A stretch of DNA of 64,000 nucleotides from Schleiferia thermophila (GTDB lineage Bacteria > Bacteroidota > Bacteroidia > Flavobacteriales > Schleiferiaceae), in contig NZ_QPJS01000001.1 in the NCBI RefSeq assembly GCF_003337435.1, positions 512,513 to 576,512 on the forward strand, in the 5' to 3' direction. Shown one piece after another: positions 35,186-36,885 of this stretch. A program made the position numbers and the translations under genes. A model generated the notes under the pieces. The model was given only the letters and a program-made list of their open reading frames with translations. It searched no databases and was not told the DNA's origin. Numbering within the stretch: position 1 is the stretch's first letter; each line of letters starts with the position of its first letter.

Positions 35186-35767
35186 TTACATCTCGGTCGG
35201 AAAGAGTTCGAGCTCTTTTACAAGTTCTCTGACTTCAGGGTATTTGTCCATGAGAAATTTAAACTTTTTGAAATTTTCAGGTATGGAGCGATCAGCCTCC
35301 TCTTCGGGTTTAGTTTCAACTCGCTCAAAAATAAATTCGATAGCAAAATTGTTGAGTTTTTTCCTGAAGGTGTCTATATAGGTCTCCAGATGGTCTTTTA
35401 TCAGGGATTCAACTGCCAGCGATGGGGTATGCACAGTGATGCGATTGCCGGAGATTTCCACTGGTTTCCATGTTTTCATCTGGTCTGCATGAATGGCATT
35501 TTTGTTTTGACGTACCCATTCAGCACACTCGTCCCAAATTTCCAGTACCTTATCCAATTCAAGAGGGTCCTCGGGTAGGTGGTGGATTTCCATGGTACTG
35601 TTGAGACTTCCGAGCTGCTGATTAATGGAAAATATACTTTTGCGGGCCTCGGCTCCTTCAGAATTTTTTATGGGCTCTGTTTCTTTAATTTCATACTTTT
35701 CAGCTCTAGTGACCTGTTGAATGTCTGGAGGATTTTCTCCCGGGTTTTTCAGAGGCTCCGGAGTCAA
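35186..35767 (-). CDS. dnaX: DnaX tau-specific C-terminal part (-1 frame)
   Basis: This 193-codon frame (TTG 35767, no ATG near its start) holds the tau C-terminal region. It begins with a Pro/Glu-rich linker (TPEPLKNPGENPPDIQQ) and continues into the domain IHHLPEDPLELDKVLEIWDE to the C-terminus YPEVRELVKELELFPTEM, which resembles the end of other Bacteroidota DnaX proteins. It lies in the -1 frame relative to the gamma ORF. After slippage at 35818-35824 the frame reads VERSEGLTESGPSDQKK and runs into it without a stop, giving a tau of about 566 residues. It is most likely not a separate gene. In other bacteria tau binds the polymerase and DnaB helicase. pyrR follows 39 bases later. Confidence 0.88.
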   Translation of the reverse strand: MTPEPLKNPGENPPDIQQVTRAEKYEIKETEPIKNSEGAEARKSIFSINQQLGSLNSTMEIHHLPEDPLELDKVLEIWDECAEWVRQNKNAIHADQMKTWKPVEISGNRITVHTPSLAVESLIKDHLETYIDTFRKKLNNFAIEFIFERVETKPEEEADRSIPENFKKFKFLMDKYPEVRELVKELELFPTEM

Positions 35768-35775
35768 TTTTTTTT

Positions 35776-35824
35776 GGTCTGAAGGCCCTGACTCCGTAAG
35801 GCCTTCAGACCTTTCTACTTTTTT
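35776..35824 (-). promoter_or_regulatory. Programmed -1 ribosomal frameshift signal in dnaX
   Basis: On the minus strand the zero-frame codons CCA AAA AAG TAG contain the slippery heptamer A AAA AAG (35824-35818). The gamma stop TAG follows directly, then a 6-base spacer counted from the heptamer (TAGAAA, 35817-35812) and a perfect 12-bp stem, GGTCTGAAGGCC (35811-35800) with GGCCTTCAGACC (35787-35776), enclosing a 12-base loop. Heptamer, frame and stem distance are those of the known E. coli dnaX signal. No Shine-Dalgarno-like stimulator is seen upstream. Confidence 0.92.
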
Positions 35825-36885
35825 GGTTCTTTGGATTTAAATATCGAGCTGAGCTGTATCAATGTCAACTCTACCAAAAGTCTGGGATTATTGGAAGTCT
35901 TGTATTTAACATCTGTTTCGTTGAGTGTTTTTAACGCCTTGAAAATATCGTTAGGCGACAATTTACTGGCCTGTTCTTCGTATTTGTTTTTAATTTGATG
36001 TGGTACTTCAAGCAGTGATTTTGTCCGATTGTTACCGGCTACCAACAGATCTCTGAAATGGGAAGCCAATCCATTGATAAAAATCTGTGCATCGTGTCCA
36101 TGGTCTAAAATTTCCTTAAATATCAAAAGCAATTGCCATGGGTCGTTGACCAGCAAGGAATCAACGACTTTAAAATAGTATTCATAGTCGAGTACGTTGA
36201 GATTTTTGATGGTCTCATCGAAAGTGAGATTTTTACCAGAAAACGATACCATTTTGTCAAAAATGGAGAGTGCATCCCGCAGGGCACCATCTGATTTTTG
36301 GGCTATGATATGCAAGGCCATAGGCTCGGCTTGTATACCTTCTTTTTCACAAATCTTTTGCAGATGTGCTACTATCTCATCTACGCTAATTCGCCGGAAA
36401 TCATACACCTGACAACGAGAGAGAATGGTAGGCAGGATTTTGTGCTTTTCAGTTGTGGCCAGGATAAATTTAACATGGATGGGGGGCTCTTCCAGAGTTT
36501 TCAGAAAGGCGTTGAAGGCGGCAGTCGTCAGCATATGCACCTCGTCGATGATGTAAACTTTGTATCTGCCCAGCTGTGGTGCTACTCTGACTTGCTCGTT
36601 CAGGTGCCTGATGTCATCTACGCTGTTGTTTGAGGCGGCATCCAGCTCAAAAATATTGAGGCTGTAGTCGGTAAGATCGTCTTTTGATGTCTGATTGATC
36701 CTTCTGGCGACGATTCTGGCACAAGTGGTTTTACCTACACCCCGGGGACCTGTAAACAGTAGTGCATGTGCTAATTGGTTGTTTTGGATGGCTCGTTCCA
36801 AAGTTTTGGTTATGTGCTCCTGCCCTACCACTGAGCTGAAGTCTGTGGGTCTGTATTTTCTTGCTGAAACAATAAATTCTTCCAT
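35815..36885 (-). CDS. dnaX: DNA polymerase III gamma/tau subunit (gamma product)
   Basis: 356 residues end at TAG right after the slippery site, corresponding to a gamma product. AAA+ motifs: Walker A GPRGVGKTTCARI, Walker B YIIDEVHMLT, sensor 1 FILATTEKHKI, arginine-finger SRC (ILSRCQVYDFRR), and the SDGALRDALSIFDK lid segment. It then covers the collar domain. As part of the clamp loader it places the sliding clamp on DNA. The four-cysteine zinc module normally found between Walker A and ELDAASNNSV is missing: only INQTSKDDLTDYSLNIF is there. The promoter element TACTTTTG ends 5 bases before ATG 36885, suggesting a leaderless mRNA. Continuation in the -1 frame gives tau. Confidence 0.95.
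   Translation of the reverse strand: MEEFIVSARKYRPTDFSSVVGQEHITKTLERAIQNNQLAHALLFTGPRGVGKTTCARIVARRINQTSKDDLTDYSLNIFELDAASNNSVDDIRHLNEQVRVAPQLGRYKVYIIDEVHMLTTAAFNAFLKTLEEPPIHVKFILATTEKHKILPTILSRCQVYDFRRISVDEIVAHLQKICEKEGIQAEPMALHIIAQKSDGALRDALSIFDKMVSFSGKNLTFDETIKNLNVLDYEYYFKVVDSLLVNDPWQLLLIFKEILDHGHDAQIFINGLASHFRDLLVAGNNRTKSLLEVPHQIKNKYEEQASKLSPNDIFKALKTLNETDVKYKTSNNPRLLVELTLIQLSSIFKSKEPKK

Follow-up and report, generated by a model that had tools for sequence, protein, structure and literature searches.

The dnaX locus and its predicted recoding site

The window, by which we mean the whole stretch of 64,000 nucleotides of Schleiferia thermophila DNA analysed here, carries on its minus strand a dnaX gene divided between two reading frames (Table 1). 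The product of the zero frame matches the TIGR02397 model (dnaX_nterm) at 394 bits, against a cut-off of 250, and this frame terminates CCA AAA AAG TAG. After a slip of one base backwards the ribosome would read VERSEGLTESGPSDQKK..., and the -1 frame is then open for 210 codons, up to a stop at 35186. The first start codon in the tail frame is a TTG at 35767, which overlaps the pseudoknot described below; the 193-aa ORF of the tail aligns with positions 464-611, in the C-terminal part, of the DnaX model PRK14971 (E 9e-6). The site has the form of a -1 frameshift signal, with a heptamer of the X_XXY_YYZ type in register and a long -1 frame after it. A first-pass annotation of this DNA had proposed a programmed -1 site here, with gamma as the unshifted and tau as the shifted product, and the sequence, the register and the conservation support that proposal. 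The end of the zero frame and the register of the heptamer were read correctly, and the products of 356 and 566 residues agree with the ORF lengths of the predicted proteins. The tail is open, as claimed; its length of 193 codons is the distance from the first TTG, the full figure being 210.

Stem 1 is formed by GGTCTGAAGGCC and GGCCTTCAGACC, which pair over 12 bp with no mismatch around a 12-base loop (35811..35776). The perfect stem six bases past the heptamer had been described before and is borne out, but the extent then given to the element was too short, as pairing continues to 35759. Folded as a hairpin, the region reaches -26.5 kcal/mol (z -6.57), which none of 200 shuffled sequences equalled. 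Among the 48 AAAAAAG sites on the two strands of the window, only the one in dnaX is followed 3-9 nt downstream by a perfect stem of at least 7 bp. The stem half has no exact match in the 2.6-Mb genome besides its own two arms, and a repeat element was rejected as a reading on this ground; with at most one mismatch, 13 further scattered sites were found, about as many as for a control pattern. No Rfam family scored above its cut-off at the frameshift site. The mycoplasma frameshift element RF01842 gave a sub-threshold match at 35836..35761 (29.9 bits, cut-off 88, E 0.12), with no match at the site in either of the related loci L002 and L003; the two elements share A6G and are alike in spacer and stem length, a weak likeness.

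Table 1. Features of the predicted dnaX recoding site in the window
Feature	Positions	Strand	Basis or remark
dnaX zero frame	35815..36885	minus	356-aa gamma-like product, AAA+ domain to domain III; TAG stop at 35817..35815
-1 frame, tau-specific tail	35186..35818	minus	210 codons and stop; predicted tau of 566 aa
Slippery heptamer A_AAA_AAG	35818..35824	minus	sequence and register; identical in both sister-genus genomes
Spacer UAGAAA, 6 nt	35812..35817	minus	opens with the zero-frame stop; in each of the three species a stop follows the heptamer directly
Pseudoknot stem 1, 5' arm GGUCUGAAGGCC	35800..35811	minus	folding and alignment
Loop 1, UUA	35797..35799	minus	longer in both relatives
Pseudoknot stem 2, 5' arm CGGAGUCA	35789..35796	minus	inside the hairpin loop
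Pseudoknot stem 1, 3' arm GGCCUUCAGACC	35776..35787	minus	folding and alignment
Loop 3, A8U, 9 nt	35767..35775	minus	A8 not conserved in relatives
Pseudoknot stem 2, 3' arm UGACUCCG	35759..35766	minus	8, 7 and 6 bp in the three species, covarying; predicted

Conservation in a sister genus and a predicted pseudoknot

A dnaX match was found in 83 of the 88 genomes of the family Schleiferiaceae. Two of them, G001 and G019, both from one sister genus, encode DnaX proteins with 79% and 78% amino acid identity to that of the window and have the same layout: CCA AAA AAG is followed at once by a stop codon (TAG, TAA), GGTCTG lies six bases past the heptamer, and the stem is closed by CTTCAGACC. Among the three species the synonymous sites of the gamma part are saturated (pS 0.80-0.84), only 66 of 272 codons with an invariant amino acid are themselves invariant, and the amino acid identity of the tail is 29-46%. 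Since the heptamer and the stem arms are kept despite saturated synonymous sites and a diverged linker, their conservation points to selection at the level of the RNA.

The hairpin loop of the window, CGGAGUCA, is complementary to UGACUCCG, which begins nine bases (A8U) past the stem. In L002 the loop sequence GGCUCCU pairs with AGGAGCC, in L003 ACUCCC pairs with GGGAGU, and in a MAFFT alignment this second stem occupies identical columns in all three species. It was spotted by eye in the window before testing, and its covariation is counted on no more than three sequences, of which one comes from an assembly that is 70% complete: 87.5% of the cells are paired, five of the eight pairs are changed on both sides (reached by 4 of 500 shuffles), and the covariation score was reached by 1 of 500. 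Sliding the stem by 1-3 columns left 17-50% of the cells paired. Taken jointly, stems 1 and 2 have 90% of their cells paired, with a covariation score that none of 500 shuffles reached; stem 1 alone, tested against shuffled partners, showed no significant covariation (146/500). The suggestion that heptamer and stem would co-occur and covary in relatives was thus borne out for co-occurrence, in three species; the covariation of stem 1 alone was not significant, and it is stem 2 that covaries. When the sequence behind the site was scanned for H-type pseudoknots, the window, L002 and L003 scored 20.5, 17.5 and 16.5, respectively, scores reached by none of 900 shuffled sequences (300 per species); the same scan over 246 relatives gave any hit in four, the best at 13.0. 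A structure at a spacing within the 5-8 nt usual for such signals is therefore present in the three species, with loop bases that pair 3' of the stem and covary, on three sequences only. We conclude that a predicted H-type pseudoknot, going beyond the simple stem noted earlier, is common to all three.

Plain hairpin folding tells the three species apart from their relatives far less well. Rows for both hairpin and pseudoknot were available for 249 of the 266 dnaX loci described below (14 of the 17 missing ones lack A8 or a longer run and, by arithmetic, the other three are short or masked behind it). Over 50 nt, L002 and L003 had z values of -1.9 and -2.4, and the window alone stands out (z -6.6); several relatives have lower values than L002 and L003 (L139 and L218, both -3.3), and the hairpin of L113, at -21.4 kcal/mol, is more stable than either. 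Hairpins are not general in the A10 relatives: the mean z over 246 of them is -0.25, folding energies of -15 kcal/mol or lower occur in 15, and z is below -2 in 7%. The -1 shift might be driven by the simple hairpin alone, the loop complementarity being due to chance. The hairpin of the window is very stable by itself, the E. coli dnaX element is described as a stem-loop in the part of PMC5009743 that deals with it, and the length of stem 2, taken singly, has p values of 0.0006 for the window and only about 0.05 for L002 and L003 (0.049 and 0.044). However, a chance pairing would hardly recur in the same columns of three species with five double-changed pairs, nor give combined scores beyond every relative and every shuffle, and we consider this explanation unlikely.

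The A run of Bacteroidota dnaX and its probable loss in one clade

We compared 266 dnaX loci, 80 of them from named contigs, 79 from the family of the window, 58 from its order, 12 from its class and 37 from its phylum. The sample is non-random: most loci were chosen for nearness to the window, 10 regions in one batch of 20 were chosen for a short first frame (two ORFs), and the loci were drawn from only part of the genomes with a match (sets of 347 and 385). Just after domain III, in the linker, 248 of the 266 carry a run of A9-A13, which is exactly A10 in 202; one locus has A8, and 17 lack a run of at least eight. The latter are the three of the window's clade, nine single-frame genes with a stop, and L089, L098, L136, L203 and L224, of which L203 is N-masked at the site and L136 and L089 run into a contig end. 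In the window's own family, A10-A13 is found in 75 of 79 loci, the other four being the clade's three and the masked L203.

Several of these loci call for comment. The edge of the L136 contig (JADILW010000088.1) resembles what we take to be a sequencing-library transposase adapter, and its 441-aa frame is for this reason an artefact. L098, from an uncultured Bacteroidales (CAMVOL010000002.1), has a two-ORF dnaX with the tail in +1 and no run of A8 or longer; no frameshift signal could be made out when it was read for one, and it may reflect an error of sequencing, a decaying gene or another shift site. L224, from a 300-kb genome (G039), encodes a DnaX of 345 aa; neither -1 nor +1 holds a long tail frame, and a gamma-like form alone seems to be left. 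G077, a genome of the family, gave two distinct full dnaX matches, L205 (A13, contig C10) and L206 (A11, contig C4), which fall apart in the tree, perhaps through contamination, which is listed at 3%.

With the same sampling, 106 of the 266 loci have two ORFs, 157 have a single ORF and three are truncated. The first-pass annotation had taken Bacteroidota dnaX to be usually one frame; as a contrast to the gene of the window this finds no support, and the A9-A13 run occurs in loci of both kinds, with A10 the commonest in each. Among the 99 two-ORF genes with A9 or more, 90 have the tail in the -1 frame and six have it in +1; for three its frame is unclear. Reading in -1 meets a stop within two codons in 105 of the 146 single-ORF genes with such a run, and reading in +1 does so in 18. 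Judged from these frames, the dominant direction in the relatives is that of the window (-1). What sets the clade apart, as far as sequences can tell, is not the presence of two frames; it is that the clade no longer has the A run and has acquired the heptamer and the structure. An A10 run in phase 1 followed by G is found in 64 of the 146 single-ORF genes and in 46 of the 90 two-ORF -1 genes with A9 or more. This context, NAA AAA AAA AAG, already contains an in-frame A_AAA_AAG, and many A10 relatives read GAA AAA AAA AAG; such sites are a possible bridge between the two mechanisms.

For a tree, eight of the 266 loci were excluded (short, truncated, masked or with a late start), and thinning of the remaining 258 at 80% identity left 113 and dropped L002. 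This quick tree groups L001 with L003 (SH-aLRT 99) and places three genes of genus g3 next to the pair, with an SH-aLRT of 94 on the connecting branch. The g3 genes are single-ORF with A10 and read GAA GAA AAA AAA AAT GAC, a run followed by T and so outside the bridge context. All other representatives of the family and order in the tree have A9 or more, except L224. The fewest changes on the 113 tips are 28 for one versus two ORFs and nine for presence versus absence of the A run. Because the g3 sisters and nearly all family and order representatives carry A9 or more, A10 is most likely ancestral here and A6G with the pseudoknot derived. The earlier idea that the ribosomal signal is an independent gain finds support in this topology.

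Transcriptional slippage might nonetheless persist in the clade, with the polymerase adding an A in the A6 run or slipping at the A8 behind the stem. An A added within A6 would give the same protein as a -1 ribosomal shift, and the A run at 248 of 266 loci makes slippage the likely ancestral mode. Moreover, a stem directly before an A run, as at the A8, resembles published cases of stem-loop-aided slippage. In E. coli, reporter cassettes of another gene family shifted frame at 10, 40 and 63% with runs of 7, 9 and 11 A's, respectively, values that do not separate the two mechanisms (Antonov et al., 2013; PMC3711429). However, the run is A6 followed by G in all three species, short of the eight to nine or more A's of the poly-A type, and the same portion of that paper gives slippage motifs as runs of more than 7 A's. 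While the polymerase passes the A6, the structure, being 3' of the heptamer, is still untranscribed, and the A8 is absent from both relatives, though they keep heptamer, stem and pseudoknot. Persisting slippage thus seems to us quite unlikely. As an observation on the window alone, the A8 (35768-35775, in loop 3) lies directly behind the stem, and losing one A would bring an immediate TGA into the tau frame.

It is very improbable that the arrangement stems from a sequencing error within the A's or from a dnaX in decay that is losing its tail: A runs are prone to indel errors, and L224 illustrates that a long tail can be lost, but two sister-genus genomes share the heptamer, the stop and the stem distance with the window despite saturation, so that the arrangement stands in three genomes of two genera, and the tail still aligns across genera (34% identity, E 4e-34 to L002) with pN at 0.46-0.49 and pS at 0.73-0.81 between the window and the sister-genus relatives. 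A random indel or gene decay had been judged unlikely from the window alone, and the two relatives also speak against a site produced by an error in the A run.

Proposed mechanism, known systems and meaning

We put at roughly 0.8 the probability that the dnaX gene of the window contains a functional, pseudoknot-stimulated -1 programmed ribosomal frameshift element that replaced an ancestral slippage on A10; we infer from the sequences the shifting and its efficiency, both proteins, the A10 slippage of the relatives and the direction of the switch. Unshifted ribosomes would decode A_AAA_AAG and halt at the UAG, giving gamma (356 aa). The H-type pseudoknot six bases downstream would hold ribosomes at the heptamer, where, by analogy with E. 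coli, some could slip one base back, with lysyl-tRNA re-pairing on AAA AAA. The shifted ribosomes would read 210 further codons and give tau (566 aa). The element would have arisen in the common ancestor of two Schleiferiaceae genera with loss of the A10 run, a transcription-level mechanism giving way to a translation-level one with place and frame direction unchanged.

The tRNA complement bears on this proposal. All 36 tRNA genes found in the genome with the Rfam model were read, and there is a single tRNA-Lys, with anticodon UUU. A search of the family genomes that allowed one mismatch gave a tRNA-Lys match in 68 of 88, with UUU in every match listed, A10 genomes included; divergent genes and 20 genomes, G019 among them, were missed. 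Thermus has two lysine tRNAs and may for that reason use polymerase slippage (Atkins et al., 2016; PMC5009743). As A10 relatives with a match also show only UUU, this idea fails to explain the switch in the window's clade, and the loss of a second tRNA-Lys was set aside, unsupported, as its trigger. By eye, no Shine-Dalgarno-like sequence was seen in the roughly 40 nt upstream of the heptamer in the three species. Bacteroidia ribosomes are reported, in the sections of PMC8710568 on this subject, to have an occluded anti-Shine-Dalgarno, which fits a stimulator of structure alone. The same sections give a Shine-Dalgarno-dependent prfB shift in 523 of 726 Bacteroidia genomes, so Shine-Dalgarno pairing is still possible in this class. 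That a Schleiferiaceae lineage swapped polymerase slippage for -1 shifting, with a virus-like pseudoknot in place of a Shine-Dalgarno stimulator that could hardly be used, is in our view reasonably probable.

The closest known system is the E. coli dnaX element (RF00382), which acts in the same gene, at the same gene stage, with the same heptamer, a downstream structure and a single tRNA-Lys(UUU). In E. coli, however, the shift yields gamma and tau is unshifted, whereas in the window the zero frame runs directly into a stop, the tail lies in the -1 frame and the shift would yield tau; and the E. coli stimulators are a Shine-Dalgarno sequence and a stem-loop, not a pseudoknot (both points as set out in the dnaX passages of PMC5009743). 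Searched up to E 10, RF00382 did not match at the site, and its best score in the genome, elsewhere, was 17.3 bits against a cut-off of 35; in controls the model exceeded its cut-off in one of 14 genomes. Of the earlier statement that the site fits the E. coli dnaX signal, heptamer, register and spacing stand; the pseudoknot, the apparent lack of a Shine-Dalgarno sequence, the reversed products and the missing RF00382 match speak against it.

Reversed organisations are already on record. Two-ORF dnaX genes with poly-A, in which tau needs recoding, were read as cases of transcriptional slippage in the relevant portion of Antonov et al. (2013; PMC3711429); they share with the window a zero-frame gamma ORF, a tau tail in -1 and a nearby stop, but carry A7-A10 runs, whereas the window's clade has A6G and a pseudoknot. 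Chlorobium phaeobacteroides is an unpublished candidate for a reversed dnaX with frameshift-derived tau and E. coli-like signals (Atkins et al., 2016; PMC5009743), like the window in its shift-derived tau, a gamma stop directly after the site and potential stimulators. In a family that we take to be Chlorobiaceae (f32), all 30 loci have a run of A8 or more; C. phaeobacteroides was not identified among the loci compared. In Thermus thermophilus a single-ORF dnaX slips transcriptionally on A9, according to the text available of PMC1088944. It too obtains two products from a single gene, at this same place, but at the RNA polymerase, and this type needs a long A run, which the window's clade lacks; the single-ORF Bacteroidota relatives with A9-A13 look like it. 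The pseudoknot stimulator of IS3 elements has been published (PMC4066793, in part). IS3-type and viral H-type pseudoknots are like the window in heptamer, spacer of 5-8 nt, pseudoknot and longer shifted protein, but belong to genes of mobile elements or viruses, whereas the window's is in a chromosomal replication gene (from excerpts of PMC4066793 and PMC5009743).

Frameshifting in dnaX and its reversed product organisation are thus known. In the open-access literature, which leaves most subscription papers outside and is weak evidence of absence, we found no paper on a pseudoknot in Bacteroidota dnaX or on a phylum-wide A10 run. If the proposed reading is true, the same two-product output would have passed from slippage of RNA polymerase to slippage of the ribosome within one phylum, with a polarity based on a tree; such a passage has so far rested on the distant comparison of E. 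coli with Thermus. A bacterial chromosomal gene would also have a -1 shift driven by a pseudoknot, apparently with no Shine-Dalgarno sequence, in a phylum that hides its anti-Shine-Dalgarno. The A10 relatives that read GAA AAA AAA AAG may offer a testable bridge to shifting on A_AAA_AAG, and, with A9-A13 nearly constant across the dnaX loci examined, a general need of Bacteroidota for two forms of DnaX becomes directly testable.
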